Origin: Candidatus Poribacteria bacterium
GTDB taxonomy: Bacteria > Poribacteria > DTPJ01 > WJIO01
DNA length: 36,321 bases
Assembly: GCA_014730235.1 (NCBI GenBank)
Contig: WJIO01000321.1
Span: 1-36,321 of the forward strand
Direction of reading: 5' to 3'
Below, piece by piece: positions 6,636-36,182 of this stretch (position 1 is its first letter; every line of letters starts with the position of its first letter). The notes below the pieces were generated by a model that saw only the letters and a program-made list of their open reading frames with translations, ran no database searches and had not been told where the DNA came from. Both the position numbers and the translations under genes were made by a program.

Positions 6636-6653
6636 ACATAACGGAAAAAAAAC

Positions 6654-6756: not shown

Positions 6757-6832
<76 letters not shown>

Positions 6833-6881
6833 TCCAGAAATTGTTTCAAGCAGACAGCTTCTTGTTAATATGAGGTTGTTT

Positions 6882-6953: not shown

Positions 6954-6962
6954 CTAATTTGT

Positions 6963-7038: not shown

Positions 7039-7055
7039 TATTTTTATATGTATAT

Positions 7056-7129
7056 GCGCCCGTAGCTCAGATGGATAGAGCGACGGACTTCGAATCCGTA
7101 GGCCGGAGGTTCGAGCCCTCCCGGGCGTG
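7056..7129 (+). tRNA. tRNA-Arg (TCG)
   Basis: The acceptor stem pairs GCGCCCG with CGGGCGT. The anticodon arm ACGGA / TCCGT has loop CTTCGAA (anticodon TCG), and the T-arm is GGAGG-TTCGAGC-CCTCC. The discriminator is G, and no CCA is encoded. Reads CGA and related CGN codons. Confidence 0.95.
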
Positions 7130-7182
7130 TTTGAATATATTCATAGAGAATCCCACTGATTGTCTCTGTGATTTTTTTGGAT

Positions 7183-7258
<76 letters not shown>

Positions 7259-7411
7259 GTTATTATTTATGTTTTTACCGCTCCCAGATTCCACATTAAA
7301 CCCTGATCAGGTAAATGTTTATCTTGTTTACCTGAGTGAGTATTAAATCAATTCCCGGAGACTTTCGCTTTCTTAGCTCAGACAAAAATTCTGGAATCTG
7401 GATTAGAAAGT

Positions 7412-7498
7412 GGGCGTGTGTTGGAACTGGTAGACAAGGCAGATTTAGGATCTGTTGGGTTCTTGCCCGTGCGGGTTCAACTCCCGCCATGCCCACCA
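7412..7498 (+). tRNA. tRNA-Leu (TAG)
   Basis: A class II tRNA with a long variable arm (around 7456-7468). The acceptor stem pairs GGGCGTG with CATGCCC. The anticodon arm CAGAT / ATCTG has anticodon TAG, and the T-arm is GCGGG-TTCAACT-CCCGC. The discriminator A is followed by an encoded CCA (7496-7498). It lies about 150 bp after tRNA-Lys and is the last of the cluster; I see no gene between the two. Confidence 0.95.
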
Positions 7499-7652
7499 TA
7501 ATATGAAATTGACTGAATACAAAAAATAGCCTTAGATGAATGGGGTAAAGGGCAATTTTGATGCCTTTTGCCTTTTATTATAAATCATATCAAAAGGAAA
7601 AGTGGTAAAGAGTGAGAATGTTTTATTTTCATTCTTGTCCTTCCTGGGGGAA

Positions 7653-7680
7653 CTTGATCAAATTAGATTATCTGATCAAG
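7653..7680 (+). promoter_or_regulatory. inverted repeat upstream of tig (possible operator or leader hairpin)
   Basis: CTTGATCA (7653-7660) and its exact complement TGATCAAG (7673-7680) are separated by 12 nt, ending 28 nt before the trigger factor start. Arms of 8 bp at this location suit either a dimeric repressor site or a leader hairpin. No T-run follows it, so it is not a good terminator. The rest of 7499-7708 shows no gene. Confidence 0.35.
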
Positions 7681-7708
7681 CGTAAATTAAATTGCAGAGG
7701 GGGTTCCC

Positions 7709-9019: not shown

Positions 9020-9070
9020 TATATTCTATTTAATCATTCAACTGGTTAAAATTATTTGGAGGATAAATAT

Positions 9071-9670
9071 ATGGGCTTAGTCCCGATGGTTGTAGAACAA
9101 ACTCCGCGTGGAGAGCGCGCTTATGATATATATTCAAGATTACTGAAAAACCGTATTATCATTATTGGTTCTGAAATAAACGATATAATGGCAAATCTTG
9201 TTATTGCTCAGATGCTTTATCTTGAACAGGACGATTCTGATTCTGAAATAAGTCTGTATATAAATAGTCCCGGAGGTGTTGTTTCGGCTGGGTTGGCGAT
9301 TTATGATACTATGCAATTTGTAAGACCGGAAGTCTCTACCTGGTGTATGGGTATGTCTGCAAGTATGGCTGCTATTTTACTTGCTGGCGGAACAAAGGGT
9401 AAAAGATATGCTCTTCCTCATTCCAAGATGCTGGTTCATCAACCCTCTGGTGGTGCTTATGGTCAGGCTACAGATATTAATATACATGCTCAGGAAATAC
9501 TGAGAACCAGGGAAGAACTGAATAAAATCCTGGCCAATCATACCGGTCAACCTATTGATAGGATTAAGGTAGATACTGAGCGAGATTTCTTTATGTCTGC
9601 TTATGAGGCGAAAGAATATGGACTTATAGATGAAGTCGTTTCCAATAGAACTGTTGATGAAAAGGAATAA
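9071..9670 (+). CDS. clpP: ATP-dependent Clp protease proteolytic subunit ClpP
   Basis: A 199-aa serine peptidase that forms the tetradecameric degradation chamber used by ClpX (and ClpA/ClpC where present). Catalytic features visible: the serine in GMSASMA (S98), the histidine in MLVHQP (H123) and the aspartate of DTERD (168-172); the oxyanion region YINSPGG is also intact. The ATG at 9071 follows GGAGG; an upstream in-frame TTG at 9056 would overlap that ribosome binding site and is rejected. It starts 51 bp after tig and ends 36 bp before clpX, consistent with one transcript. Confidence 0.97.
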
Positions 9671-9706
9671 TTTTAATTTATTTAAATACTGGAGAGGATA
9701 AATCTT

Positions 9707-10990
9707 ATGCGGTATAACAAACCTCCTGGTAACGAAGATCCATTCCGTTGTTCATTCTGTGGAAGCACTCAGGATGAAATTCGTCGTTTAGTTGCTGGAC
9801 AGGATCCAGGTGTATTTATATGTAATGATTGTGTTGAGTTATGTAGTGAATTATTAAAAGAAGAAGAAGAAATTGACGATCTGAATAATGTTAATATAAA
9901 AGTGCCGCTTCCATCAGAAATAAAGGCGGCCCTTGATGAATATGTTATTGGTCAGGAAAAAACCAAAAAGACCCTTTCAGTTGCAGTCTATAACCATTAT
10001 AAAAGAATACAGCTAGGAAAAGATGATGATGGAGTAGAACTGGAAAAAAGTAATATACTTCTGATTGGTCCCACAGGAACAGGAAAAACTCTTCTGGCCC
10101 AAACCCTTTCCAGGGTATTGGAAGTTCCATTTACAATAGTTGACGCTACTACCCTTACAGAAGCGGGATATGTAGGTGAAGATGTAGAAAATATTATACT
10201 GAAGCTTATACAAACCGCTGACTATGATATAGCCAAGACAGAGCGAGGCATAGTATATATTGACGAGATAGATAAAGTTGCCCGGAAGAGTGAAAATCCT
10301 TCTATAACCAGGGATGTATCTGGTGAAGGAGTACAACAGGCTCTTTTGAAAATATTAGAAGGCACTATCGCAAATGTACCACCACAAGGGGGTCGTAAGC
10401 ATCCTCAGCAGGAATTCATACCCATTAATACTACAAATATACTATTTATCTGTGGCGGAACATTTGTAGGGCTTGATAAAATCATAGAAAACAGAACAGG
10501 TAGAAAAAACCTCGGTTTTGGCGCGGAAATCAAGAGTGATCGTGGTAAAAAACTTGGTGAAGTATTAGCTGAGGTGCAACCGGATGACCTTTTGAAATTT
10601 GGTTTTATCCCAGAGTTTGTAGGCCGGCTTCCTGTTACAGCAACACTGCACGAGCTTGACAAATCGGCTTTAGTAACTATACTCACAGAACCTAAAAATG
10701 CCCTGGTTAAACAGTATAAGAAGCTTTTTGAAATTGAAGATGTTAAGCTTAAGTTCAATGAGGATTCTCTGGATGCCATTGCAGAATTGGCTATGCAGCG
10801 TAAGACCGGTGCTCGTGGATTAAGAGCTATTGTTGAGGAAATCATGCTGGATATAATGTATCAACTACCTACACTTTCTGAATCAGGTGTTGCTGGTTGC
10901 GTTATAACCAGAGATGTGATAAATAAAAAGGAAGAACCCCTCTGGGTTTATGATAAAGAAGTTCAATCTGAAAAACGATCTGCATTATAA
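9707..10990 (+). CDS. clpX: ATP-dependent Clp protease ATP-binding subunit ClpX
   Basis: A 427-aa AAA+ unfoldase, normal length, that recognises substrates and feeds them to ClpP. The N-terminal C4 zinc-binding domain has Cys15, Cys18, Cys39 and Cys42. The AAA+ module has Walker A GPTGTGKT (121-128), the substrate-gripping pore loop GYVGEDVEN, Walker B IDE (185-187), and the late motif [14 protein letters not shown]. Start ATG preceded by GGAGAGG. Placed between clpP and lon, co-directional with short gaps. Confidence 0.98.
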
Positions 10991-11014
10991 TTTTTCTTAT
11001 TCAGGATTTTGAGT

Positions 11015-13420
11015 ATGAAACGTAAATGGTCAATAGTAAATCAGGATTCATCTGACAATATATATCCCGTTGAAACTAATTCTACGCCATTACCAGTGTT
11101 ACCTTCAAAGGAAGTAATGTTCCCTGATATGACTATACCTTATTACTTTTCCAGGGAACAGGAAGTTGCAGCTATAAGATATGCTATTGAAACTGGTGGG
11201 CATTTGCTTATATTAGCTACCGATGAAGACCTTGGTCATCTTGAATCGGAAGATTTATATGAAATAGGTACTTTTAGTGAAGTATTGGAATGGGTTGATT
11301 CAGGTGATGGAGCTATTAAAGCCTTTATAACGGGTATATCCAGAGCAAAGGTTGTTGATTATATTTACGATGACGTATTTCTTAAGGCAAACGTTGAGAT
11401 AATTCCTGAGGATACTAGCTGGGATGTAGAAATACAGGCTCTTGTGAAAAATCTAATATCTAACTTAAGGAAGTTTCTAAAGGTAGTTAAAGACCTTCCG
11501 GATGAATCTCATGAAGGATTAAAGGAAATCTCATCCAAACTCAGCCCGGAAGAACTTACAAATACAATATCTCGCCATTTATCTTCATTTCTTGATCCCG
11601 GTCTTCAGCAGGAAGTACTCGAAGCTATTGATATAAAAGAACGGCTGGAAAAACTTATACAGATATTTGTTTCACAAATACAAATTTTCAGTATAGAAAA
11701 GGAAATTGAGGGCAGAATACACCATCAGGTTGGCAAACAACAAAGGGAATTTTACCTGAATGAGCGTATGAAAGCCATACAGCAGGAGCTGGGTCGGGAT
11801 CCCAGTAAATTATCTGATGAAGAAGACCTGAAAAAACGCATTCTTGATGCCAAAATGTCAGAAGAAGCCGAAGAAAAAGCCCTTTCAGAGCTTGAACGTT
11901 TAAAGCAAATCCCATCCATGTCCGCTGAAGTAGGGGTTATAAGAAATTATATTGACTGGCTGGTGTCGATGCCCTGGGCAGTTTCAACAGATAATAAAAT
12001 AGATATAGATGAAGCAGAAAAAATACTTGAAGAAGACCACTACGCTCTGGAAAAACCAAAAGAGCGTATTCTTGAATATCTTGCAGTTCTAAAGCTGGTT
12101 GAAAAGCTGAAAGGTCCTATACTATGTTTTGTAGGCCCTCCGGGAGTTGGAAAAACATCTCTGGCTAAATCCATTGCCAGGGCTACCGGTCGTAATTTTG
12201 TGCGTATGTCTCTGGGTGGAGTCCGGGACGAAGCTGAAATTCGCGGGCATCGTCGAACATATATAGGTTCTATGCCCGGTAGAATTATACAGGGTCTTCG
12301 CAAGGCAAAATCCAGAAACCCACTCTTTTTGCTGGATGAAGTAGACAAAATGAGTATGGATTTCAGGGGAGATCCTTCAGCGGCTTTACTGGAAGTCCTT
12401 GATCCTGAGCAGAACAATACATTTAACGATCATTATCTGGAAGTAGATTTTGATTTATCTGATGTATTATTTATCACAACTGGCAATTTCCTTAAGTCCA
12501 TACCCATTCCCCTCAGAGATCGTATGGAGATAATAAACATTCCGGGTTATACGGAATACGAAAAGGAAAAAATAGCCCAGCTTTTCCTTATTCCCAAACA
12601 GCTTAAAGCCAATGGTCTGGATGTAGAAAATACAAACTTTTCCCGTTCTGCTATTTTGACAGTTATTCGCGAATATACGAGAGAAGCTGGCGTAAGAAAT
12701 CTGGAACGGGAAATAGCTTCTATATGCCGAAAAGTAGCCAGAAAAGTCGTAAAACAAAAGGAAACCGAGTCTCCAAAGAGAAGCATAAACCTTAATGCCC
12801 GAAGCGTAAGAAGCTATCTGGGTATTCCTAAATTTAAACATGGTAAGGCCGAAGAAGAAGATCAGGTTGGCGTGGCAACAGGTTTGGCTTATACGGAACT
12901 TGGTGGTGATGTTTTATCCATAGAAGCTACAACAATGGAAGGAGAAGGTAGACTTGAACTCACCGGCAAACTTGGTGATGTTATGCAGGAATCGGCAAAA
13001 GCTGCTCTTAGTTATATCAGATCAAAAAGCAAAGTTTTACCACAGATAGATCTTCCTTCTGAAACCTATACAAAGCTGGATATTCATATCCATGTTCCTG
13101 AAGGTGCTGTGCCAAAAGATGGCCCATCCGCAGGGATTACAATGGCAACAGCTATGGTCTCAGCACTTACCCAAAAGCCCGTAAGAAAAGATATGGCTAT
13201 GACCGGTGAGATAACTCTCCGAGGGCGGGTTCTTCCCATTGGCGGAGTAAAAGAAAAAATACTGGCTGCTGTCAGGGCTGATATACCAAATATAATCATT
13301 CCTCAAGATAACGAAAAAGACCTCAGTGATATTCCTCCTGAAATAAGAAAAAAATTGTCGTTTCACCTGGTGGATAACATGGATAAGGTGTTGGAACTGG
13401 CAATTATTAGTGAACAGTAA
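11015..13420 (+). CDS. lon: Lon ATP-dependent protease
   Basis: An 801-aa LonA-type protease that degrades misfolded and regulatory proteins. It has an N-terminal substrate-binding domain (from [17 protein letters not shown]), a helical linker, an AAA+ module with Walker A GPPGVGKT (374-381, K380), Walker [10 protein letters not shown], and a C-terminal protease domain with the Ser-Lys dyad: S705 in PKDGPSAG and K748 in [10 protein letters not shown]. The spacing of 43 residues between them equals that in E. coli Lon. The ATG at 11015 is preferred, with AGGA 8 nt upstream; an in-frame TTG at 11009 is too close to that site. It lies 24 bp after clpX, probably in the same operon. Confidence 0.97.
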
Positions 13421-20410: not shown

Positions 20411-20444
20411 TTTGCTATTAGTATTTACTAAGGAGAGGTATTTT

Positions 20445-23400
20445 ATGAAGTTGTTTACATATATCTGGACAGGTATATTAATAACAATTCTACTCAGTTC
20501 CTGTGTAACCCTATCACCTCCAAATCAAGAACTCAATAAAAATGAGTCGCAGAAAGAAATTGAAACTTACCAGATAGAAAATAAAAAAGAAAAAACACTG
20601 GATTCAGAATTCTTTAGAACTCTTACAAGCAATTCCATTAATGATATAGCTGCTGATGATAATACAGTATGGATAGCCACTAATAGAGGTGTTTGTATGC
20701 TTGATCGGGCAAAGGATGAGTGGTCTTACTATACTAAAGAGCAAGGTCTGGGATCGGATAATGTTAGTGCTGTGGCAATAGATGGACAATGGGTTTGGTT
20801 TGGGACTGATGACGGGGTTAGCCGCTATGATACCGATGAAAAGAAATGGAAAACTTTTAAGGATAAGGATGGCCTTAAAGGTCAGAAAGTTTATACTATA
20901 ACCGTTGATGTTGATTATGTCTGGTTCGGTACGGATGGGGGGCTTAACAGGTATGACAAGAATATAGACAGTTGGGCTGCCCGTACAAAACAGGATGGTC
21001 TCAGTGATAACAATGTAACTGCCATTGCTTTAACTGGTGACTATATGTGGGTCGGAACTCTTTGGGAAGGTGTAAATAGATACGATAAGACAACGGACTC
21101 ATGGAATACCTATGACAAAACAGCAGGACTTATAGACAGCGAGATTACCACTATATCGGCTGTGGAAAATTTTATATGGTTCGGTACTCAGGAATCAGGC
21201 ATAAGCCTTTATGATAAAACAAATCAGACCTTTGTAAAAAATTATACAAAAACTGATGTCCTCTCCAGTAACGACATAAGGGATATAGTTGCCGACGGAA
21301 ACCATATATGGATCGGAACAGCCAACGGCGGCGTTCATAGATATATCGAAGCTGTGGATACATGGGTCAGATACACCAATAACGATGGTTTGGCCAGCAA
21401 CAATATAACCTGCATCGATGTTCATAAAAACGAAGTCTGGTTTGGTACCTATGATACTGGTATAAGCTTATATAATAAAGTAGATAATAAATGGACTCAG
21501 TTTGTCAGGGCTGATACACTACCAAATAATGATATTAACCAGGTAGCTTGCGATAAGATTGGTAATTTGTGGGTAGCTACAAAAGGTGGCGCTGCAATGT
21601 ATTCTCTATCTGATAAAGAATGGACCAGATATGGAAAACATTCAGGTCTTACTACTGATCTTACTACATCAGTTGTAGCTAATGGTAATAAGATATGGTT
21701 AGGTACAGCAAGAGGGCTAGCTGCATTTGATGTTGATAAAAATAAGTGGCAATATTACACTAACAGCAATGGGCTTTCACATGATTTTATTACCGCTCTG
21801 GATGTTACAGATCATACTGTGTGGATAGGAACTAACAGAGGTCTTTTTCATATGAATACAGAGAGCGAGGGAGATTTTGGTAGAATAGAAGATCTGGCTG
21901 ATGAGACTATAACCTCTGTAACTCCTGATGGGAATTCTATATGGATTGGAACTAAAAATGGTTTGTGGCATCATAAATTTGATGGAAATAATGGTTCTGT
22001 AACTAAAATTGAAGATGTGCCTGATGTCTATATAAACTGCATATTGGTATGGGGTAAAGGAAATATCTGGGCAGGTACTCGCGATGGAATATATTATTTC
22101 AATCCCTCCAATAAAAAGTTTAGTGCTTTGAATTGGGATATAGAAATATCCGATCCTGATGCTAATCAGGAAAGTTGCAATGTGGTCACTATGGAATTTG
22201 ATGAGACAAGACAGAAAATATGGGTGGGCAAGCCCGACGGTTTGATAAGCTATAACACAAAAACAAAAAATTGGGCCCTTGAAGGTAAAGAAAACATTTT
22301 GAATAGAAATGTCCGATCAGTTCTGGCCATCAATGGTTATCTATGGGTAGGAACTTCCAGCGGATTAGTTGAATATAACGGAAATGATGATAAATGGCAT
22401 GAACATAAAGCTTTAATGACTCGTGAACCCCTGAGGGAAGATAGTATTTCAAACATTGTTTTTGATGGTGATTACGTCTGGTTTAGCAATTGGAGGAGAT
22501 CCCGAAACGGTGCTATTGTCCGTTATGATAGACAAACTGACACATGGCAGTGGTTCAGCAGAGAAACTATACTTAAAGATACTGAATCTGAAAGCATGAC
22601 CCAGATAAGACGTATTATTGTGGATGATGACGCAGTATGGTTTGCAACCGATTATGGCTTGTTGAGATATGACAAATCAGGTGATTTCTGGGAGCATTTT
22701 ACCAGAGAAGATGGACTATGCGATAACAGTATAAATTATGTTGAGTGTGGTGATAATGTCGTATGGGTTAGCTATTCCAATATGACCCGTTTAACCGGTG
22801 CTGAAATAAGCAAGTATGATAAGGAAAAGCGTGAATGGGAAACTGTGGAAATTAGTCAACTGGTTTCCGAAAGGGAATTCGTCAGAGCTATGGCTGCCGC
22901 CGGTGATGATGTATGGATCGGCTTAAGCTCTTCCGGTGTGCGAAAAATCAGCAAAGATGGTAAACAACGTCGTTATACCAGGGAAGATGGTCTGAATCAG
23001 AATTCTGTGGATTGTATAACTGCTGATAACGGTGAAATATGGTTCGCCCACAGCGGTTGGGATGATGAAGCTTCTGTAACAAGGTATAATACAAATACAG
23101 AAAAATGGAAAGTCTACTCCACAAAGGATGTCCTTACTGATGAGAGGATAAATACAATAATTGCCACTGACAGATATGTCTGGATAATTTATCGCTGGAG
23201 CAGAAGCGGTGTAACTGCCTATGATAAAAAAATGGATGAATGGAGCAATTTCCAGCCCAGAGGAGACGGTAACCACTGGCGAAGCAGTATTGAAGATATT
23301 GCCGAAGATGGTGATTATCTATGGATAGGTACAGATGGCGATGGGGTTAAGCGTTTCCACATGGCTTCCGGTACATGGACTAGTTATGACTCCTCAACTG

Positions 23401-24554
23401 GATTGTTAATGGACGACGTTAATGATTTTGGTCTTAACGTGGATAAGCGATATGTTTGGGTTGGCACCCGAAGAGGCCTGAGCAGATACGACAAGCTGAC
23501 CGAATCATGGACTAATTTTACCAAGCGAAGTGCTCTGGCTGATGACGAAGTTCTCTCAGTAGCTGTAGATGATAAATATGTCTGGTGCGGTACCCCCGAT
23601 GGATTATCACGATATGACAAAAGATATGGTGGATGGAAAACTTACATTGAAGGTGGGGGATTATATGATATGTGGCGGAATGATATGGACAGGGATGAAA
23701 GAAGACGTCTTCATGATGCTATAGAGAAAACCCTGATAAATGACACTATTAATGCCATTGCCGTTGATGAAAGATACCTCTGGGTAGGTACTAAGGATGG
23801 CGCAAATCGATATGATAAAGTTACGGATAAATGGGACAGGTTTGAGACGGAAAACGGCCTTCCGGGTATTGATGTCAACTCAATTGTAGTCGATGGTTAT
23901 GACGTATGGATGGGTACAAACAACGGTCTCGGTAAATTCCCCCGAATGTCCGATAACATTAACGCATGGGTAAGTTATACATCCGGTATAGAGATAAGAC
24001 AGACAGCTATGACCAAAGAATATGCCAATGCCCTTGTCTCAAATGAAGTATGGTGTGTTGATGCTGATGAAGATTACATCTGGATTGGAACTATGCGGGG
24101 TGTTAGTAGATATGATAAGGGAAAGGACATGTGGGTCACATTGACTGTCGAGGACGGACTTCCCACCAACGAAATAGGAAGCGTAAAGGTTGACGGCCAG
24201 AATGTATGGTTCGGCAGTAATGATGGCATAACTGTATACAACAAAGAATCCGGTGAATGGATGTCCTTCTCTACCGATAATGGCTTAAACAGTAACAGAA
24301 TTACCTGTATTACCAGTGATGATAAATACGTTTGGTTTGGAACATTTGATGCAGGTATAATTAAGTATGATAAATCAAAAAAAAGCTGGACTTCTTACTC
24401 TAAAAAGCACGGCTTGGTACATAACTCCGTATTTTCCATCAGCGTTGATGGTGATTATCTATGGATTGGAACTCATCGCGGGCTTTGTAGATATGACAAA
24501 AATATGAATACATGGACTGCCTATACTGAATACGGTGACTCTGAAGATTTGTAA
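20445..24554 (+). CDS. lipoprotein made of about 29 Reg_prop beta-propeller blades
   Basis: A 1369-aa lipoprotein. Its signal peptide ends in the lipobox LSSC with the lipidated Cys20. From about residue 50 to the end it is a tandem array of blades of roughly 42-50 aa with the consensus D-x-I-x-A/C-I-A-x-D-x-x-x-VWIGT-x-x-G-V-x-RYDK-x-x-x-x-W; I count 29 WIGT-type strands, some decayed (blades 15-20). Such repeats normally form the periplasmic sensor half of hybrid two-component proteins that sense polysaccharide pieces, but no membrane-spanning kinase part follows here. The ATG at 20445 has AAGGAGAGG 6 nt upstream; an earlier start at 20412 would spoil the signal peptide. It may be a periplasmic or surface binding protein or scaffold. 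Ligand unknown. Confidence 0.85.
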   Translation: MKLFTYIWTGILITILLSSCVTLSPPNQELNKNESQKEIETYQIENKKEKTLDSEFFRTLTSNSINDIAADDNTVWIATNRGVCMLDRAKDEWSYYTKEQGLGSDNVSAVAIDGQWVWFGTDDGVSRYDTDEKKWKTFKDKDGLKGQKVYTITVDVDYVWFGTDGGLNRYDKNIDSWAARTKQDGLSDNNVTAIALTGDYMWVGTLWEGVNRYDKTTDSWNTYDKTAGLIDSEITTISAVENFIWFGTQESGISLYDKTNQTFVKNYTKTDVLSSNDIRDIVADGNHIWIGTANGGVHRYIEAVDTWVRYTNNDGLASNNITCIDVHKNEVWFGTYDTGISLYNKVDNKWTQFVRADTLPNNDINQVACDKIGNLWVATKGGAAMYSLSDKEWTRYGKHSGLTTDLTTSVVANGNKIWLGTARGLAAFDVDKNKWQYYTNSNGLSHDFITALDVTDHTVWIGTNRGLFHMNTESEGDFGRIEDLADETITSVTPDGNSIWIGTKNGLWHHKFDGNNGSVTKIEDVPDVYINCILVWGKGNIWAGTRDGIYYFNPSNKKFSALNWDIEISDPDANQESCNVVTMEFDETRQKIWVGKPDGLISYNTKTKNWALEGKENILNRNVRSVLAINGYLWVGTSSGLVEYNGNDDKWHEHKALMTREPLREDSISNIVFDGDYVWFSNWRRSRNGAIVRYDRQTDTWQWFSRETILKDTESESMTQIRRIIVDDDAVWFATDYGLLRYDKSGDFWEHFTREDGLCDNSINYVECGDNVVWVSYSNMTRLTGAEISKYDKEKREWETVEISQLVSEREFVRAMAAAGDDVWIGLSSSGVRKISKDGKQRRYTREDGLNQNSVDCITADNGEIWFAHSGWDDEASVTRYNTNTEKWKVYSTKDVLTDERINTIIATDRYVWIIYRWSRSGVTAYDKKMDEWSNFQPRGDGNHWRSSIEDIAEDGDYLWIGTDGDGVKRFHMASGTWTSYDSSTGLLMDDVNDFGLNVDKRYVWVGTRRGLSRYDKLTESWTNFTKRSALADDEVLSVAVDDKYVWCGTPDGLSRYDKRYGGWKTYIEGGGLYDMWRNDMDRDERRRLHDAIEKTLINDTINAIAVDERYLWVGTKDGANRYDKVTDKWDRFETENGLPGIDVNSIVVDGYDVWMGTNNGLGKFPRMSDNINAWVSYTSGIEIRQTAMTKEYANALVSNEVWCVDADEDYIWIGTMRGVSRYDKGKDMWVTLTVEDGLPTNEIGSVKVDGQNVWFGSNDGITVYNKESGEWMSFSTDNGLNSNRITCITSDDKYVWFGTFDAGIIKYDKSKKSWTSYSKKHGLVHNSVFSISVDGDYLWIGTHRGLCRYDKNMNTWTAYTEYGDSEDL

Positions 24555-24804: not shown

Positions 24805-25347
24805 TTAGGCATTTGCTACCATCTTTGGTTCAATTTTAGCCGCCGCATACTGAACCCCCCGACGATACCTGGATCTTACTGCCTCATAATTCATGTCAAG
24901 TTCTGAAGCTATCTCACCAAACGACAGGTTATGAAAAAATTTCAAAAATAGCACTTTGCGATAAGGTTTTGGCAATTTCATAAGTATATCTGCAGCTTCC
25001 AGATCGCTGTTGGCCTCTTCTGATATTTCATACTCAAAGCCTTCGTCCTCCGGCACAAAACGTTTTTTATACCTGAACATCTTTCTATGATAATCAGCCA
25101 CCCTGTTAAATATAATCCTGTTAAACCATGTGGAAAATGCCGATTTTCCCTTAAAAGAATCAATAGAGGATACCAGGTTCATAAATATATCCTGAGTAAC
25201 ATCCTCTGCGTCTTCTAGAGGAACCATTCTGCGAACTCGTCGGTAAGTTAAAGGAAAATATAATTCTATTAATTCGTCCATGGATTCCATATTACCTGAT
25301 TGTATTTGTGATATTAATTTTTTATCTCTTGATGCCGTTCTTCCCAC
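24805..25347 (-). CDS. ECF-family RNA polymerase sigma factor
   Basis: A protein of 180 aa, normal for extracytoplasmic-function sigma factors with only sigma-2 and sigma-4 domains. Sigma-2 (about 20-90) has DAEDVTQDIFMNLVSSIDSF, GKSAFSTWFNRIIFNRVADY and a basic segment after it, which bind the beta-prime clamp helices and the -10 element. Sigma-4 (about 120-170) has LPKPYRKVLFLKFFHNLSF, GEIASELDMNYEAVRSRYRR, a helix-turn-helix for the -35 element. I choose the GTG at 25347 because a near-perfect site (GAGGTGAT) ends 4 nt before it; a GTG at 25356 overlaps that site. No anti-sigma gene is adjacent. It is divergent from the fused RNA polymerase gene, which makes it a candidate dedicated partner, by position only. 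Confidence 0.93.
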   Translation of the reverse strand: MGRTASRDKKLISQIQSGNMESMDELIELYFPLTYRRVRRMVPLEDAEDVTQDIFMNLVSSIDSFKGKSAFSTWFNRIIFNRVADYHRKMFRYKKRFVPEDEGFEYEISEEANSDLEAADILMKLPKPYRKVLFLKFFHNLSFGEIASELDMNYEAVRSRYRRGVQYAAAKIEPKMVANA

Positions 25348-25479
25348 TTTAATCACCTCTGTTAAATTTTATATATGATCCAGCTACTATTAATAATTGA
25401 ATTTATTTTTACAATTACCTTTGCTCTATAATAATACAAAATGCCAGTGACACCCTCGCGTCACCGTTATATTTTATTT

Positions 25480-25597
25480 GGTTCTTCCGGGTTTAGTGTG
25501 GTAAAGACAAGACTTCTTTATGCTGTCATTCCTGATTTTGCAGGAATGACAGGCTGAGGGAATTTTCAATTATAACCACACTAAATCCGGAAAAGCC
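25480..25597. repeat. MITE family copy C
   Basis: A 118-bp element. The left end GGTTCTTCCGGGTTTAGTG (25480-25498) is mirrored by the right end CACTAAATCCGGAAAAGCC (25579-25597) with few mismatches, and the centre is the family hairpin GTCATTCCTG...CAGGAATGAC. This is the copy with the clearest inner terminal repeats. It lacks the outer extension seen in copy A. Confidence 0.7.
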
Positions 25598-25715
25598 TTT
25601 TATTTTTGAACCTTTATCGGTAATTTGCGTTGGTAAATATGAAGATAGTTTTTTAACTGATATTTCTAAAATTAACTAAAACCATATGTTGCAGTGCTTA
25701 AAGAGACACTAGCAA

Positions 25716-25789: not shown

Positions 25790-25893
25790 CTGTTTGTTCA
25801 TGCTGAATTCTTATAAACATTGGTTTTAGAGATTTTTTAGAATTCTCAGTTTAATAGTTTTGCAAATATATTCCATTATATCGGGAGGGTTCT

Positions 25894-28800
25894 ATGAAAA
25901 AACAATTTAAATACGACCATGACAACAACACTGATATATACGGCAGATTTATTCTGGAATCTATGGAGGAAGGTTCTGGACATATCTTAGGCAATGCCCT
26001 CAGGCGTATCCTGTTATCAAAAATTCCCGGAGCGGCTGTTACTTCTGTTAAAATTGATGGTGTTGCCCATGAATTTGACCTAATACCTGAAGCGGTTGAG
26101 GATACATATGAGATTATAAAGAACATATCAGATTTAAAATTCAATATGCTGCACCCGGGTAAAGATCGAATAAGAATCAGTATTCATAATAGGAAAAAAG
26201 TCAGGGCCAGTGATTTCTCATCGGATGATAACATAATTATTTTAAATCCTGATTCCCATATTGTAACTTTAGAATCCGGTGCCGCTTTCGTTGCCGAAGC
26301 TGTGATTGAAAAAGGTCTTGGTTTTAGTAAAGCCTGCTCCGGCGACTTTAAATCGGGTGTTATACCGGTAAATGCTGATTTTTCTCCCGTTGAACAGGTG
26401 GCTTTTTCAGTATCAAAAAAACAAAATGGGAGTGAAAATCTGAATATAGAGATAAAGACTAATGGAGGAATATCGCCTATCAATGCCCTTGTTACTGCCG
26501 TTGGGATTTTGCTGGAGAATCTGGTAGGTGATAACATAATAAGTGGAAAATTCGGCAGTGAAAAGGGAACTTTTGTTCTTGAAACCAATGGCAATCAACA
26601 TTCAATCGGCAGTCTTCTATGCTGGTATTTGATGACGCAAAATTCACAGGACGGTTCCGAAGATGTTAAATTCGCCGAATATAAGATTAACCGTCAGGAT
26701 GAATTGGTAATTAATATATATACTCATGGCTCAATTAATCCCAGACAGGCGTTGGATAAAGCATTTAAAAATCTTGAGCATATTCTCAGGGAACTTTTAT
26801 CTGAACCAGTAGCTCAGAGAGGAACCTCAAGCGATGAATGTCTGATTAATATGCAGGATAATAAGGAATCACCTGTTACTGGCAAGGTTAGTTTCGGTGA
26901 TACTTCCTCTGTTTGGGAAGCTTCGGATTTACTTCAGATGCAAACCCGGTCTTATAAACGTTTTTTACAAACCCATGTTCCTCATAAACAAAGACATAAT
27001 ACAGGGCTGAAAAAGATTCTGGATGAAATATTCCCTATAGAAAGTGAAAGCTTAACTCTGGAATGTCTTGGTTATTCATGCGGCAAAATATCTGTTGATC
27101 CCCTGGAGTGTATAGAAATCGGATTAACCTATTCAATACCTGTAAATTTGCAGATGAGGCTTTCATCAAAAGAATCAGGTGGAATCATAAGGGAAGAAGA
27201 AGTTTTGTTGACCCATGTTCCACTTATGACAGAAGAGGGTGTATTTATTATTAGAGGCCAAAAAAGGGTTGTTATTGGTCAACTTGTCGGTCTGGATCTT
27301 GATCAGTTTAATGATGTTGCGGAAAAACATGTTAAGCTGGTTAATGAAATGTTATGTGAATCTCTTTCTGAATCCCTTGCCGGATTGACATCAGCCGTAT
27401 CAGATCGGATGTCTGTGGAATTGTCCAATGGATGTAAATTAACCCCTTCCAGTCTTCTTTGTACAGAAGATGAAGATGGAAAACTCCAAATCCAGCAGGC
27501 TAAATCTGCTGTTAATAGATTCTTTCTCAGTAATCGCTTCTCTCAGATACTTCAGGAAATTAATCCCCTGGATATACTAACTCATTGCCGCCGAATAAGT
27601 CTTTACCAAAATAGTCTCGGGGCCGACGATGTATCAGGGGAACCCCGAATGTTGCATCATTCTATATATGGAAGGTTAGACCCAATGGAATCGCCGGAGG
27701 GACCAAATGTTGGTATGATTAACACTGTTGCCATGTATGCTCAAATTGATGATGAAGGCAATATTCTTGCGCCATATCGTAAGATGGCAGATGGAGAAAA
27801 AAATGACAATTTAATATACATATCGGCTAAACAGGAAAAGGGTGAAATAATAGCGCCAGCTAAATATATATCAAAAGATGGTAAAATACCCGCCCGAATT
27901 GATAATGATGTAGTTATGGTGGGAGAGGGGAAAGCAAAATATGCCGATGCCTTTATACAGCAAACCCTGGGGCCTTCCACATCCCTTATCCCCCTGCTGG
28001 AACACGATGACTCTAACCGCGCTTTAATGGGGGCAAATATGCAGCGTCAGGCCGTACCCTTACTCTTTCCCCAGCAGCCTGTGGTTCAGACCGGAGCAGA
28101 AAACAAAATCGCTCTGGATTCAAAAACTATGGTTACTGCTAAGCGCGGGGGAGTGGTAAAGTATATCACATCTCAGGAAATACATATAGTATCAGACGAT
28201 GGTGAAATTGATGTCTACAGGCTTCTGAAAAACCGTCCTGCACATTCCTCCAGAAACTGGCTTAATCAAAAGCCTGTAGTCGCTAGTAATCAAAGAGTTT
28301 CGGAAGGGCAGGTTATAGCCGATTGTTCATCATCACATAATGGTAAATTAGCTTTGGGTACTAATATTCGGGTGGCCTACATGCCGCTTGATGGATATAA
28401 CTTTGAGGATGCCATCCTTGTCAGTGAAAGGGTGATTAAGGATGACATATTAACCTCTATTCATATCAGCACTCTGGAAATAGAGGTAAGGGATACAAAG
28501 TTTGGTCGGGAAAAGATAACCAGTCAACCCCCGGGAGCTGATAACAATCAGATATCCATGCTGGGTAATAATGGTATAGTAAAACCCGGTTCATGGGTTA
28601 ATGAAGATGATGTTCTTGTGGGTAAGATTACACCTAAACCATCTGACGAAAATCCCGAGGATAAGCTTCTAAATATAATCACTGGACCAGAACGCAGGAT
28701 ACTTAACTATCATGATTCATCCCTCACTGTTCCACCGGGAAAAAGCGGCATAGTTATGGATGTAAAACGATTATCCCGAAATGAAAATCCATCTTTGCCA

Positions 28801-31800
28801 AGAGGTGTATATGAGGTGATTAAAGTTGATATAATCCATAAGAGATCTCTGGAGGTAGGCGATAAGCTCTCTAACCGACATGGCAGCAAAGGAACTATAG
28901 CAGCAATTATTCCCGAAGAGGATATGCCTTTCCTGGAGGATGGAGCTCCCGTTGATATGGTTCTGAATCCTCTGGGTGTGCCCACAAGGCTTAATCCGGG
29001 GCAAATTCTGGAAACTCATCTGGCCTGGGCTGCTAAAGCTTCAAAATCTATTATTTACTGCCCTCCATACGACGGCCCCAGTTTAGATCAGATAAGGGAT
29101 TTGTTGACAAAGTCAGGACTTCCCGCCAGCGGCATGGTTCCAATTCGCGATGGCCGTAATGGGCGCGTTACAGATCGGGAAGTTACTGTGGGATACCAGT
29201 ATACCATGAAGCTCATTCACATGGTAGATGATAAAATTCACGCCCGGTCTACAGGTCCCTACTCCCTGTTTAACCAGCAGCCCACTGGAGGCAAGATGCA
29301 GTTTGGCGGTCAGCGCTTTGGTGAGATGGAAACCTGGGCCCTGGAAGCCTACGGTGCAGCATATTCCCTTAGAGAACTTCTGACCGTTAAATCCGATGAT
29401 ATAGATGCTCGAAAAGAGATGTATTTAAATATCCTGGAAGGTAAAGATTCATCACCAAAACCGGGTATTCCCAGGACTTTAAATAATCTGATCATGTGCC
29501 TGCGGGGAGTTTGCTTTGATCTCAGTTTGCTGGGTAAGACAGATAAAAATGTATTCAGTGTAGATACTGTAGATTCAGTTATTATATCTCTGGCCTCACC
29601 GGATCAAATAAGCCGGGAGTGGTCTCATGGTCTGGTATACAGCGACTCTATGGATTGGGATAACGATCACCCGCCGCAAGGTAGCATATTCTGCGAAAAA
29701 ATATTTGGTCCCTTAAGGGATTTGCAATGTCAATGCGGAAAAATATCAGGTATGCAGTATAAGGGAAAGGTGTGCGGTATTTGCGGTGTGGAAGTTGCAC
29801 CTTCCAGTATGCGGAGCGAAAGGCTGGGTCATATAGAACTGGCTGTACCTGTATGTCATAATTGGCTGTTAAACGCCAGACCAAGCCCTATAGCTATCCT
29901 GCTTCAGATGGATATCGAAAATATAAGATCGGTAATCTATTACGAAAGCTACATAGTCACAGAGCCAGGTGAAACCACTCTGGAATTTAAACAAATTCTT
30001 AGCAAAGACGAATACCGGCAGAAATGCGAAGAATTTGGAGAAAAGTCTTTCGGTGTATTAATAGGGGCAAAAGCTGTTAGGGAATTACTGAAAGATATAA
30101 ACCTTCAGGAACTACTCTCATCTCTGGAAGATCCACATGAAAAACGTCTGGTTGATACATTTATCAACTCAGGTATAAAGCCCGAATGGATGATCCTGGA
30201 GTGCATACCTGTAATCCCCCCGGGCATCAGGCCCATGCATGAATTAGAGGGAGGAGTATTTGCCACTCTTGATCTTAACGAACTTTATGCCAGGGTCATA
30301 TCAAGAAATAAAACATGCAGGGAATTTTCTGCTATAGGTGATGAACAGGCCCATGAAGCTGCCCGGATGGTACAGGAAGCTGTTGATTCTCTGTTTGGCA
30401 ATGGTCGGCGCAGGGAGGGTCAATCCGGAGATCTTAAATCCCTGAGTGACCTTCTAAAAGGAAAAACCGGAATGCTTCGAGGAAATCTCCTGGGTAAACG
30501 TGTGGATTACTCAGGCAGATCGGTGATCGTCGCAGGGCCTGAACTTAATCTGGATGAATGTGCTTTGCCAGAAGATATGGCCCTGGAATTGTTTAAGCCT
30601 TTTATCATTCATAAACTTGTCAGTTCCGATGAAGCTAACAGCATTATCAGTGCCCGTAAGATGATAGAATCCAAATCACCGGAAACCTTAAAAGCTCTTC
30701 AGGAGGTGATACAGGATCGATATATTGTTCTGAATAGAGCACCTACTCTCCATCGCCTTGGTATACAAGCCTTCAAGCCAAGACTGACCAAAGATAAAGC
30801 CATACACCTGCATCCTCTGGTATGTGTAGGGTTCAACGCTGACTTTGACGGCGATCAGATGGCTGTGCATATACCCCTGAGTCATGAAGCCCAGAAGGAA
30901 GCAGGGGATTTAATGCTTGCAACAAAAAACGTGCTATCTCCTTCTCACGGTGGCACAATAGCCCAGCCAAATCAGGAGATGATAGCTGGATGTTATTATA
31001 TGACAATGGAGACAGGTAAATCTTCCGATCCCGGTAAGGAATTCACTGATATACTGGATTTAAAGAAATCATATGAATTGGGAAGGATAAATATACACGA
31101 TTATATTAACTACCACTATCAGGATGATTTTATAAATACAACCGTCGGGCGTATCTTGTTTAACGAAATTGTTCCCGAAGGATTAGGACGATTTATCAAC
31201 CGAAAGGTTGATAAATCAACCCTGTTTAGTCTTATCGAAGAATGTCATGCAAAATTAGGTGAGGATGAAGCCGTAAGATTCCTTAATCATGTGGATGATC
31301 TGGGTTTCAAATATGCAACCCGCTACGGTTGTTCCCTGAGCATTGATAATCTTAAACCCACAACTTCCGGAGATGAATTATTAAATCAGGAACTGATGTC
31401 ACCCATATCAATAATGGTTATATCCGGTGCTCGAGGTAGTAGAAACCGTTTAAGAAATCTAGTAGGAGTTATTGGAAATATAACTAAAGCCAGCGGAGAG
31501 TTATACAGCCTGCCTGTTTCTAACAATTTTATGAATGGATTATCAACTTTAGAGCATTTCATGATGACATCCGGCGCTCGAAATAGTCTTATTGATGTAT
31601 CTGTAAGAGTCGGTCGGGCTGGACACCTGATGCGGAAAATGGTATCAGCCTGCCAGAGTGTTGTCGTAAAAGAGCATGACTGCGGGACAGAGCATGGAAT
31701 AAAAGTCGATAATTTGACCTTTGGTGATGACATCCTGCGCTCCTTACATCATCGTATTGTTGGTAGAGTTTTGTCCTGTGAGGTAATAAATCCTGAAAAT

Positions 31801-32598
31801 GGTGAATCTATAGCCAGAGCTGGAACTTTGATTGATGATGATATTGCTTGGAGAATTGAGCATGCCGGTGTAAAAGAGGTAAGTATTCGAAGTCCTTTTA
31901 CATGCCAGACTGAGAATGGTTTATGTTCCATGTGTTATGGTATTGATCTCGCATCAGGTTCTCTGGCAGAAACGGGAACACCTGCTGGTGTTATAGCCGC
32001 CGCTGCTACTGGTGAACCTGTGGTTCAGCTTAATTTCCGGGTCTTTTATGGCAATGGAAAAGAGATTATCGAAGCCGGTATACCAAGGCTGGATAATCTT
32101 CTTGAAGCCAGGGAGGATGTTAAAATTACAGTTGGCGAGGATTCTGTGGAATTGTGCCAGACCTTAAGAAAAAATGGGCAGGAAAAGTTCCAGATACTTC
32201 TGAAGGATGAAATTATGCGCCTGTATGGTATATATGGGCTTAATGTAAACGATAAGCACTTTGAAATCCTTGTCAGCCGCATACTATGGCAGGTTCGGGT
32301 TAAAAAGCCGGGAGATACAAATTTATATGCTGGAGAGGTGGTAAACAGGCAAAGAATTATCATGGAATCCCGGGATCTTCCAGATACAGCAAAACACCCG
32401 GAAGTAGAGCCTGTTCTTACAGGCCTATGGGATGCTGTTCTCACTAACGAAAGCTTCTTGGCTGCAGCGGCTTTTGGTGATACTTTAAACGTTCTTACCC
32501 AGGCTGCTGTAAGACGTCAGCAGGATAAACTCAATGGAATGACTGAAAATTTGATCCTCGGCAAACTTATACCTGCCGGAACAGGATTTAGTTCTTAA
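25894..32598 (+). CDS. single-chain multisubunit-type RNA polymerase: alphaNTD - Rpo11-like - beta - beta-prime fusion
   Basis: A 2234-aa DNA-directed RNA polymerase core in one frame, with no internal stop; GGGAGGG precedes the ATG. Domains: complete alpha NTD (1-228; GHILGNALRRILLSKIPGAA); a shorter alpha/Rpo11-like dimerisation domain (229-302; VKFAEYK, SINPRQALDKAFKNL); linker (303-340); beta (341-1215) with YGRLDPMESPEGPN, GYNFEDAILVSERV, lysines K983 and K991 in HKRSLEVGDK, DDKIHARSTGPYSL; beta-prime (1220-2234) with zinc site CQC...CGIC, clamp helices, LLGKRVDYSGRSV, catalytic NADFDGD (1648-1654), second zinc site DCGT...TCQTENGLCSMC, and IPAGTGF at the end. Missing: alpha CTD, beta lobes, SI3. 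Trigger-loop His is Tyr2052 and a bridge-helix His is Ser1893. Beta-beta-prime fusions are known in Helicobacter and Wolbachia; this alpha-beta-beta-prime form is not one I recognise. An accessory role is inferred. Confidence 0.95.
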   Translation: MKKQFKYDHDNNTDIYGRFILESMEEGSGHILGNALRRILLSKIPGAAVTSVKIDGVAHEFDLIPEAVEDTYEIIKNISDLKFNMLHPGKDRIRISIHNRKKVRASDFSSDDNIIILNPDSHIVTLESGAAFVAEAVIEKGLGFSKACSGDFKSGVIPVNADFSPVEQVAFSVSKKQNGSENLNIEIKTNGGISPINALVTAVGILLENLVGDNIISGKFGSEKGTFVLETNGNQHSIGSLLCWYLMTQNSQDGSEDVKFAEYKINRQDELVINIYTHGSINPRQALDKAFKNLEHILRELLSEPVAQRGTSSDECLINMQDNKESPVTGKVSFGDTSSVWEASDLLQMQTRSYKRFLQTHVPHKQRHNTGLKKILDEIFPIESESLTLECLGYSCGKISVDPLECIEIGLTYSIPVNLQMRLSSKESGGIIREEEVLLTHVPLMTEEGVFIIRGQKRVVIGQLVGLDLDQFNDVAEKHVKLVNEMLCESLSESLAGLTSAVSDRMSVELSNGCKLTPSSLLCTEDEDGKLQIQQAKSAVNRFFLSNRFSQILQEINPLDILTHCRRISLYQNSLGADDVSGEPRMLHHSIYGRLDPMESPEGPNVGMINTVAMYAQIDDEGNILAPYRKMADGEKNDNLIYISAKQEKGEIIAPAKYISKDGKIPARIDNDVVMVGEGKAKYADAFIQQTLGPSTSLIPLLEHDDSNRALMGANMQRQAVPLLFPQQPVVQTGAENKIALDSKTMVTAKRGGVVKYITSQEIHIVSDDGEIDVYRLLKNRPAHSSRNWLNQKPVVASNQRVSEGQVIADCSSSHNGKLALGTNIRVAYMPLDGYNFEDAILVSERVIKDDILTSIHISTLEIEVRDTKFGREKITSQPPGADNNQISMLGNNGIVKPGSWVNEDDVLVGKITPKPSDENPEDKLLNIITGPERRILNYHDSSLTVPPGKSGIVMDVKRLSRNENPSLPRGVYEVIKVDIIHKRSLEVGDKLSNRHGSKGTIAAIIPEEDMPFLEDGAPVDMVLNPLGVPTRLNPGQILETHLAWAAKASKSIIYCPPYDGPSLDQIRDLLTKSGLPASGMVPIRDGRNGRVTDREVTVGYQYTMKLIHMVDDKIHARSTGPYSLFNQQPTGGKMQFGGQRFGEMETWALEAYGAAYSLRELLTVKSDDIDARKEMYLNILEGKDSSPKPGIPRTLNNLIMCLRGVCFDLSLLGKTDKNVFSVDTVDSVIISLASPDQISREWSHGLVYSDSMDWDNDHPPQGSIFCEKIFGPLRDLQCQCGKISGMQYKGKVCGICGVEVAPSSMRSERLGHIELAVPVCHNWLLNARPSPIAILLQMDIENIRSVIYYESYIVTEPGETTLEFKQILSKDEYRQKCEEFGEKSFGVLIGAKAVRELLKDINLQELLSSLEDPHEKRLVDTFINSGIKPEWMILECIPVIPPGIRPMHELEGGVFATLDLNELYARVISRNKTCREFSAIGDEQAHEAARMVQEAVDSLFGNGRRREGQSGDLKSLSDLLKGKTGMLRGNLLGKRVDYSGRSVIVAGPELNLDECALPEDMALELFKPFIIHKLVSSDEANSIISARKMIESKSPETLKALQEVIQDRYIVLNRAPTLHRLGIQAFKPRLTKDKAIHLHPLVCVGFNADFDGDQMAVHIPLSHEAQKEAGDLMLATKNVLSPSHGGTIAQPNQEMIAGCYYMTMETGKSSDPGKEFTDILDLKKSYELGRINIHDYINYHYQDDFINTTVGRILFNEIVPEGLGRFINRKVDKSTLFSLIEECHAKLGEDEAVRFLNHVDDLGFKYATRYGCSLSIDNLKPTTSGDELLNQELMSPISIMVISGARGSRNRLRNLVGVIGNITKASGELYSLPVSNNFMNGLSTLEHFMMTSGARNSLIDVSVRVGRAGHLMRKMVSACQSVVVKEHDCGTEHGIKVDNLTFGDDILRSLHHRIVGRVLSCEVINPENGESIARAGTLIDDDIAWRIEHAGVKEVSIRSPFTCQTENGLCSMCYGIDLASGSLAETGTPAGVIAAAATGEPVVQLNFRVFYGNGKEIIEAGIPRLDNLLEAREDVKITVGEDSVELCQTLRKNGQEKFQILLKDEIMRLYGIYGLNVNDKHFEILVSRILWQVRVKKPGDTNLYAGEVVNRQRIIMESRDLPDTAKHPEVEPVLTGLWDAVLTNESFLAAAAFGDTLNVLTQAAVRRQQDKLNGMTENLILGKLIPAGTGFSS

Positions 32599-32690
32599 CT
32601 TACTTTGCCTGTTATTCATATTCATTTTATCTGTAATTCCCGTTTGTTTTACTTTTGTTATTGCGAAGAACGGGGTAACAAATAAAGTTT

Positions 32691-32883
32691 GGTTCCTTCG
32701 GGTTCAATGTGTTAAAAATAAGAAACTTCTATATGCTGTCATTGCTGCGAAACTCTTATTCCTTTTTGCTCAAGCTTTTTCAAAAAGCTTGAAGCAGGAT
32801 GACAAGCTGAGAAAATTTTCAAATTATAACCATACTCAAACCGGAAGAGCCAAAGTTTTCACGGACATAAATTTTATGCTTGG
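32691..32883. repeat. MITE family copy E (inverted partner of copy F)
   Basis: The left inner end GGTTCCTTCGGGTTCAATGTG starts at 32691, the right inner end CCGGAAGAGCC lies at 32841-32851, and the outer right end (32863-32883) is identical to that of copy A. The core hairpin is enlarged by an insertion containing AAGCTTTTTCAAAAAGCTT. The left outer end is diverged and cannot be placed, though related sequence begins near 32655. It fills most of the 404-bp gap 32599-33002, which otherwise holds only the candidate promoter listed next. Confidence 0.7.
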
Positions 32884-34877: not shown

Positions 34878-36182
34878 CTACATTATAGCCTGAAGCTCTT
34901 TATAACCTCTTGCATCGGCGAATTTTTTAAGCTCATCGGGTTTTGTTATACCGTCTTTGGTATAGGCCTCCAGAGCTTGATACATAGCTACAGAGCCAGA
35001 TTTGGGATCCATAGGATGATCCAGTATGTTTGATCCGGCCAGAGGTGCTACATCAGGGCCAAAAGCTTGGATATTTACACCTAAATTCGCCGCTCCTAAA
35101 CCTCCGGCTGTGACTGGTAATGTGTCCTTAATATTTCCCAAAGGCTCTTTGAATACTTCATCCAATCTCAACAGAAGCCCGGGATCTCTTGATGCTACGT
35201 GGACGTTAAGCTGTCCCATTACACCTATTTGGAAGTAATCACCGCCGCATAATCTGGTCAATTTGGCCGTAACCACGTCATCGATGCGTCTTGGGCCTGT
35301 GGATAAAGCCGATCTGCCACCGCTGTGAACGTATATAGGAACATTGATATCCGGATCTTCAGCCAGGATCTCCACTGTGCCAAGATTATTGGCCAATATT
35401 GCATTAAACATAACTCCGGTTGCACCATATTCAATAGCCCTTTTGGCCATGTCTTTTATCTTGTCGGGCCTTGCTGTAAGATGCGGAGCATAAATAACTT
35501 TTTTACCTGTTTTGTCCTCCGCCTTCCGCAGAGCTTCTGAAACAAGTCTTACTTTCTTTTCAAAGGGGCAGTATTTGGGATTCATCATTTTTTCGTCATC
35601 TTTTATAAGTACAGCACCGCCTAGAGCCGCCTGATAGCATTTTTCCGCTGATTCTTCTGGTGTAAGGCCGCAGCATGGCTTGATTATTGTTCCCATGACC
35701 GGCATGTTTTCATCAAGACCGATAATTTCTCTGGTGCCTTTGGCCCCAAACTTAGGGCCGGGAAATTTTTCCAGGGCTTTCTCCGGAAGCTGGAAATCCA
35801 GGTACGCCACATTTTCGTAATACACGAATTCCAATATAGGGCCGCCTACCGAAAGCATGGAGATCTGGTAAAACAGGTCTGACTCCATATCCAGATTACC
35901 AAGAGGTGAACGGACATATATTACACCTTCCCCATCTCCGTATTTTTCGATCTTGCTAACATCAGCCCTGGCACTATAAAAAGTATCTGTTGGTGTTTTA
36001 TTACCTATCCATCTTCCTGTTGTTTCTTCTTCAGCGATCTTCTTTGCTGTCTCCACCAGATCCGATTCAGTTTTGATATAATAGGTGAATAATACAGAAT
36101 CATCCGGATCGTGTTGGGAATCCATTTCTATAACTCTCAAAGGTTCACGACCCCTTATTTCCACTGGAACATATTTTTCCAT
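34878..36182 (-). CDS. RuBisCO-like protein (form IV superfamily)
   Basis: A 434-aa protein of the RuBisCO large-chain superfamily, with an N-terminal alpha/beta domain and a C-terminal TIM barrel. Aligned by motif to form I: K168 in GTIIKP matches K175; C170 replaces K177; K194, D196 and E197 in LIKDDE match the carbamylated lysine and metal ligands K201, D203, E204; H286 in VHSGGR matches H294; loop 6 reads MGQLN, so K334 is replaced (Q324). Loss of K177 and K334 rules out normal CO2 fixation, while the retained metal site argues for an enolase-, isomerase- or transcarboxylase-type reaction on a phosphorylated sugar acid. Such roles are known for RuBisCO-like proteins in methionine salvage and apiose/isoapionate breakdown. 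ATG at 36182 with GGAGAC upstream. The final 139 bp of the window hold nothing recognisable. Confidence 0.92.
   Translation of the reverse strand: MEKYVPVEIRGREPLRVIEMDSQHDPDDSVLFTYYIKTESDLVETAKKIAEEETTGRWIGNKTPTDTFYSARADVSKIEKYGDGEGVIYVRSPLGNLDMESDLFYQISMLSVGGPILEFVYYENVAYLDFQLPEKALEKFPGPKFGAKGTREIIGLDENMPVMGTIIKPCCGLTPEESAEKCYQAALGGAVLIKDDEKMMNPKYCPFEKKVRLVSEALRKAEDKTGKKVIYAPHLTARPDKIKDMAKRAIEYGATGVMFNAILANNLGTVEILAEDPDINVPIYVHSGGRSALSTGPRRIDDVVTAKLTRLCGGDYFQIGVMGQLNVHVASRDPGLLLRLDEVFKEPLGNIKDTLPVTAGGLGAANLGVNIQAFGPDVAPLAGSNILDHPMDPKSGSVAMYQALEAYTKDGITKPDELKKFADARGYKELQAIM

Follow-up and report, generated by a model that had tools for sequence, protein, structure and literature searches.

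Bacteria are taught as having a single RNA polymerase (RNAP) core that is reprogrammed by exchangeable sigma factors. The beta-beta' fusions of Helicobacter and Wolbachia (PRK09603, PRK14844) unite beta and beta' in one chain, but these are the housekeeping RNAP of these bacteria and include no alpha, and the RNAPs of jumbo phages have split beta and beta' genes and likewise no alpha. Jumbo phages do bring an extra multisubunit-type RNAP into a bacterial cell, but this enzyme is viral (PMC7598289). The YonO protein of phage SPbeta is a single-chain DNA-dependent RNAP of ~100 kDa with no recognisable trigger loop, which makes RNA well but at lower accuracy (PMC5467207), and the yeast linear-plasmid protein K2ORF6p joins beta to a part of beta'. 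The remainder of beta' is a separate protein in that system (K2ORF7p), an alpha homologue is absent, and the affinity is to poxvirus RNAP (PMC6211774). Finally, pairs of unlike alphas, of which one makes the R45-type contact to beta, are represented by Francisella alpha1/alpha2 and archaeal Rpo3/Rpo11 (PMC3294249). Here we describe a gene on contig WJIO01000321.1 of a Candidatus Poribacteria bacterium (the window, meaning the whole stretch of 36,321 nucleotides that was analysed) in which alpha, an Rpo11-like domain, beta and beta' form one polypeptide.

The gene occupies positions 25894-32598 of the forward strand as a single unbroken frame from an ATG, encoding 2234 amino acids (aa). An earlier note, made from the sequence alone, had proposed a check against RNAP subunit profiles, and Pfam and NCBIfam models indeed match in the expected order. 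Residues 25-209 carry RNA_pol_L and RNA_pol_A_bac, which together represent an alpha N-terminal domain (NTD) with its insert domain; residues 229-303 match the Rpo11-like RNA_pol_L_2; residues 346-1212 hold Rpb2 (beta) domains; and residues ~1226-2232 hold Rpb1/beta' domains, with NCBIfam carrying beta' to the C-terminus. The features of the locus that bear on this architecture are as follows.

25883..25889 (+): GGGAGGG, a Shine-Dalgarno-like sequence 5' of the fused gene (from sequence)
25894..32598 (+): fused RNAP gene, alpha NTD, Rpo11-like alpha', beta and beta' (from the frame, domain profiles and an independent homologue)
25900..26523 (+): alpha NTD with insert domain, residues 3-210; R38, the R45 equivalent, is kept (GNALRR)
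26539..26802 (+): second alpha-like domain, residues 216-303, without the insert domain
26881..29535 (+): beta part, residues ~330-1214 (alignment to housekeeping enzymes)
29569..32589 (+): beta' part, residues ~1226-2232 (alignment to housekeeping enzymes)
30835..30855 (+): catalytic NADFDGD, residues 1648-1654 (sequence and alignment)
31573..31650 (+): bridge-helix region, residues ~1894-1919, drifted, with 7 of 17 invariant positions kept
32011..32091 (+): compact trigger loop, residues ~2040-2066 (alignment)

The earlier note had described a complete core in one 2234-aa chain, preceded by a strong ribosome binding site. The single-chain order and the GGGAGGG at 25883-25889 bear this description out, but 'complete' goes too far, because several domains are lost and the bridge helix and trigger loop have drifted. 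Similarly, the protein has nearly all Rpb1 and Rpb2 Pfam domains, but the assertion that it passes through nearly all beta regions and all main beta' regions could not be sustained, given that the protein has neither a beta lobe nor an alpha C-terminal domain (CTD) and has shed several inserts.

The fused protein is not the housekeeping enzyme of its genome, since that genome (G000; 451 contigs, 91.6% complete) also has ordinary rpoB and rpoC genes adjoining on contig C235, 3' of ribosomal-protein genes, and an ordinary rpoA with its CTD on contig C322, next to an L17-like ribosomal-protein gene. The recommended search for separate rpoA, rpoB and rpoC genes therefore located all three, and the concern that the fused protein might be the only RNAP falls away. 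The Poribacteria housekeeping alpha2-beta-beta' enzyme resembles the fused protein in its homologous core domains and near-identical catalytic centre, and is its nearest neighbour in our tree, but differs in having separate genes, identical alphas with CTDs, a complete lobe, a canonical trigger loop and inserts. The Helicobacter and Wolbachia fusions provide the best NCBIfam matches and share the joining of beta and beta', but the fused protein is not the sole cellular RNAP. A literature search, whose coverage was incomplete and which is thus not proof of absence, returned neither an alpha-beta-beta' fusion nor a Poribacteria RNAP paralogue. The known relatives are sole-RNAP beta-beta' fusions, reduced phage or plasmid enzymes and alpha heterodimers on separate chains; neither the present architecture nor its genomic setting is known from elsewhere.

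The fused family is present in 3 of the 84 Poribacteria genomes, namely that of the window and two others (G057 and G063) that belong to different families. A search for homologues with the same fusion, as the earlier note had advised, recovered the full fusion from G057 (metagenome-assembled genome (MAG) Dive96_bin1.70, JAJRTO010000319.1), where the order is the same and one frame spans 2,163-2,216 aa by the start chosen, at 41% identity to the window protein. This independent frame disposes of the possibility, raised in that note, that the junctions are assembly artefacts. Family pieces were found on short contigs of G063 (MAG B30T1B8; JADFGN010000321.1, JADFGN010000679.1), with the 5' portion on C345, the 3' portion on C155 and a fragment of a second copy on C635. 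Two fused-family paralogues of G063 (L057 and L065) share a near-identical stretch around the beta/beta' junction, at the end of one contig, which may reflect either a recent exchange or an assembly break at a repeat. The fusion was found in none of 302 genomes of other phyla, and a wider scan of genome contigs for it returned only the Ca. Poribacteria MAGs Dive96_bin1.70 and B30T1B8. One alignment set (VIA-align rows) spans the beta part only and is thus uninformative on alpha. We also considered an 876-aa alpha from another genome, G054, as a polymerase fusion; this second alpha (L040:8635-11265(+)) has an NTD, a CTD and a C-terminal extension of ~550 aa, and was rejected as an alpha with a CTD and a tail of no known kind.

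A quick tree was built from 1,627 shared beta and beta' columns of four fused sequences, 12 Poribacteria housekeeping enzymes and representatives of other phyla, with branch support from the Shimodaira-Hasegawa-like approximate likelihood ratio test (SH-aLRT). All four fused sequences fall into a single clade (99% SH-aLRT), and this clade and the 12 Poribacteria housekeeping enzymes are grouped together (97% SH-aLRT). The window copy is a long branch with some risk of misplacement, and reading the two as sister groups requires a root placed among the other phyla. The phylogeny of each segment that the earlier note had envisaged is informative for beta and beta' taken together, which place the fused clade by the Poribacteria RNAP, but not for alpha, where the segment is too short to decide whether fused and Poribacteria alphas group together (approximately unbiased test, p-AU 0.51). 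A single fused clade beside the Poribacteria RNAP is consistent with a gene duplication and fusion that took place once, long ago, within Poribacteria or shortly before they arose. Differences between family members pile up at third codon positions (second/third, 0.24/0.67 and 0.17/0.59), which indicates that the fused genes are under purifying selection.

To describe the anatomy of the enzyme, we compared the fused proteins with 35-38 housekeeping sequences, using E. coli numbering and calling a position invariant when it is unchanged in all 35 housekeeping enzymes. The catalytic NADFDGD is kept along with N458 and R425, as are E813, D814, K1065, K1073, R1106, H1237, R678 and Q688 of beta. 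Across beta' 425-510, the invariant positions are retained almost in full (32/33 in the window copy, 31/33 in G057 and 31/33 in G063). Neither the bridge helix (7/17, 11/17 and 10/17 in the same order) nor the trigger loop (9/18, 3/18 and 4/18) has the canonical form. The trigger loop of the window copy is compact yet present, with Q929, R933 and F935 kept and the substitutions M932F, T934V and H936Y.

Several other parts of the enzyme have been lost. Beta 940-1037, beta' ~940-1133 and beta 230-342, which we take to be the lineage-specific inserts SI2, SI3 and SI1, respectively, are missing from the fused proteins wherever these regions are readable. The window copy is additionally without the entire beta lobe (E. 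coli 150-440), and its beta' is without 657-716, ~940-1133 and parts of 1153-1211, while the alpha CTD is missing from the fused protein altogether. The earlier note had held that the catalytic residues and both zinc sites are retained. This is true of the window copy, for its metal-binding residues and for both sites, but the first zinc site is gone in the two relatives where that part is fully readable.

An alpha dimer platform, as judged by domain content, is present in the form of two unlike fused alpha domains (Pfam and structure model). The second is modelled as beta-beta-alpha-beta-beta-alpha, which is the Rpo11/RpoL dimerisation fold without the insert domain, and its best match among solved PDB chains is archaeal Rpo11/RpoL (3.3e-5). 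By our own reading, the R45-type residue that the first domain carries is no longer present in the second domain of the window copy. In two relatives (P0002 and L056), this domain matches PF13656 only under its cut-off, and P0002 keeps a bacterial-like ALRRELLS. The alpha pair resembles an Rpo3/Rpo11 pair in a single chain, a likeness that may be convergent or due to common descent with archaeal Rpo11. As in the Francisella and archaeal pairs (PMC3294249), there are two unlike alphas of which one has the R45-type beta contact, but here both are in a chain with beta-beta', and the second is without the insert domain even though the protein is bacterial.

The best clue to the function of the fused RNAP is a gene that the earlier note had omitted from its finding, which encodes an extracytoplasmic function (ECF) sigma factor and lies beside the fused gene. 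Two further features of the window are therefore relevant.

24805..25356 (-): ECF-type sigma-70 family factor, 183 aa, a divergent neighbour and candidate dedicated sigma (Pfam sigma-70 regions 2 and 4; adjacency)
25608..25631 (+): GAAC-N16-CGTT, ECF-promoter-like, with counterparts 5' of the fused genes of G057 and G063; weak by itself

The flank can be read at three fused loci, and each of them has an ECF sigma gene beside it; in G057 and G063 this gene lies directly 3' of the fused gene (with a gap of ~10 bp and an overlap, respectively), the two sigmas being 70% identical. The arrangement suggests a private second transcription system, of a kind not known from any other cell. We also considered GAACATAAC-N10-ACGTTTATA as a promoter for the fused genes. 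It has one occurrence in G057 and one in G063, right before the fused gene, but it could be coding sequence and is not claimed. Genes for Reg_prop beta-propeller proteins are also located near the fused gene in the window (20412-24554(+)) and in G057 (L039:7932-9782(-)), a proximity that may be coincidental should the phylum have many genes of this kind.

A second kind of accessory RNAP, first met in G063 as a 1,043-aa beta-beta' protein with NADFDGD, represents a compact family of single chains of ~1,020-1,095 aa. Members occur in 11 of the 84 Poribacteria genomes, at loci that include those given here, and the 302 genomes from outside the phylum have none.

L066:6898-10026(-); L127:8961-12245(+); L129, L130-L134 and L136: compact beta-beta' genes

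An ECF sigma gene lies directly 5' of the compact RNAP gene in all 10 intact loci, which span five genera, and the sigmas of five other compact loci compared by BLAST are 60-72% identical to that of G063. Upstream of the sigma gene, the ECF-promoter-like motif TGAACTTT-N12-GGTGTCA is present in 7/7 aligned loci (L129, L131, L127, L066, L136, L130 and L133). Among 18 genomes searched, all 10 that have an intact compact module contain a perfect match, located each time by the sigma gene, and the 8 others, including G055 with its broken module, contain no perfect match; a control with N13 spacing gave no perfect match among those listed. The ten motif-bearing genomes are partly close kin (five in one genus) and should not be counted as ten independent cases. 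The only extra perfect copies in this search are one each in the sister genomes G007 and G029 (L144 ~1501-1527 and L143 ~1501-1527), ~0.1 kb before an ABC-2 permease/DUF3526 gene, which is a candidate target of the compact sigma-RNAP pair. In viral relatives of the compact RNAP, beta' and beta mostly occupy a frame each, and searches with the four sigmas gave no match in their vicinity. The adjacency of sigma genes in both families, together with the motif of the compact family, indicates that two accessory RNAP families of Poribacteria are likely tied to ECF sigmas, one with a visible self-specific promoter-like motif.

Given these findings, we consider it probable that the fused protein is an active accessory single-chain core that takes the neighbouring ECF sigma and serves few promoters. 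In this proposal, a single duplication and fusion beside the Ca. Poribacteria housekeeping RNAP would have been accompanied by loss of the alpha CTD and several insert regions, with the two-metal catalytic centre retained. Alpha-I, alpha-II (reduced to its Rpo11-like domain), beta and beta' would be translated as one chain. A normal core assembles as alpha2, then beta, then beta', and the segments of the fused chain follow this textbook order. The adjacent ECF sigma would then direct the fused core to a small private set of promoters, and the conservation of many invariant positions in the clamp helices, a sigma-docking site, speaks for this proposal. The kept chemistry site argues for activity and the eroded bridge helix and trigger loop for a changed cycle; because these two elements are altered, catalysis would be simplified and probably slower or less accurate.

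Several observations weigh against this proposal. Within the catalytic core, conservation is lowest in the bridge helix and trigger loop, the trigger loop is excised in both relatives (G057 and G063), the structure model of beta' is of modest confidence, and one of the G063 copies seems interrupted. Furthermore, the window sigma is divergently transcribed and only ~23% identical to the sigmas of G057 and G063, such that it may be an unrelated neighbour, and the ECF-like promoter at 25608 is weak.

The strongest rival, which we nonetheless regard as unlikely, is that the fused protein is an RNAP paralogue that no longer transcribes and has a regulatory role instead; it might, for instance, sequester the sigma encoded next to it, or bind nucleic acid but make no RNA. 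The erosion of the bridge helix (7-11/17) and trigger loop (3-9/18), as well as the loss of the beta lobe in the window copy and of the first zinc site and trigger loop in the others, speaks for such a protein. However, the metal site and nucleotide contacts (31-32/33, plus E813, D814, K1065, K1073, R1106 and H1237 of beta) would be needless in a dead enzyme, and they are almost intact. Moreover, loss of the trigger loop need not mean loss of function, as YonO is active without a recognisable one (PMC5467207).

Less likely still is an alternative core that uses general sigma factors as a backup or under specific conditions, its ECF neighbours being incidental. Sigma region 2 docks at the clamp helices, which keep 16/27 invariant positions in the window copy, 22/27 in G057 and 24/27 in G063, and the flap-tip helix, another sigma-docking surface, is kept in the window copy; in addition, the sigmas of G057 and G063 are not orthologous to that of the window. 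This explanation leaves unaddressed the presence of an ECF gene at every readable accessory RNAP locus of both families, where it is the sole neighbour common to all.

That the fused protein might be an RNAP of a phage or mobile element that became trapped in the chromosome seems very improbable. Phages do carry single-chain or reduced RNAPs, such as YonO and the single 2,302-aa beta-beta' frame of a viral contig (L067, IMGVR_UViG_3300042922_000850, 4966-11871(+)), from which an alpha domain is absent. YonO is likewise a single chain related to multisubunit enzymes, but it is very distant, lacks most conserved domains and is phage-borne (PMC5467207); its size of ~100 kDa and a homology limited to few active-centre residues do not describe a protein of 2234 aa in which nearly all Rpb1 and Rpb2 Pfam domains are recognised. 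A phage or plasmid origin was rejected after tblastn and viral scans gave only ordinary rpoB/rpoC-like or reduced phage matches, none with the alpha fusion. The fused proteins also reside beside the Poribacteria housekeeping RNAP in the tree, and the genes around the window copy are chromosomal (ClpP-, ClpX- and Lon-like proteins and tRNAs).

A chimeric assembly of ordinary genes, or a contig present through contamination, which one might suspect of metagenome assemblies and a genome in 451 contigs, can be set aside with near certainty, given that the full fusion occurs in two genomes of different families, that the fused genes are clearly unlike the housekeeping copies of the same genomes, and that a ~120 bp repeat within the locus is also on dozens of contigs of the same bin, to which the contig therefore belongs. 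This repeat (25475-25605) has inverted ends and dozens of genomic copies, with a diverged copy downstream of the fused gene (~32690-32851); we rejected it as a sign of mobility because it is genome-wide. Elsewhere in the window, a RuBisCO large-chain-like protein of 434 aa is predicted from sequence at 34878-36182(-).

A natural alpha-beta-beta' fusion would be of use to structural studies and as a tool in orthogonal expression. It would also let researchers examine which parts of the catalytic cycle are dispensable in a cellular RNAP, above all the trigger loop and bridge helix. More tentatively, and with the odds slightly against us, we propose that Ca. Poribacteria hold two kinds of self-contained sigma-RNAP module, one with a fused alpha-alpha'-beta-beta' and one with a compact beta-beta'. 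Each would combine a single-chain core with an ECF sigma and a promoter of its own, which would amount to a second, orthogonal chromosomal transcription system in Bacteria. If true, its logic would be comparable to that of the extra nuclear polymerases of eukaryotes, and the existence of a second core, conserved, single-chain and served by a sigma of its own, would contradict the rule that a bacterium has one core.

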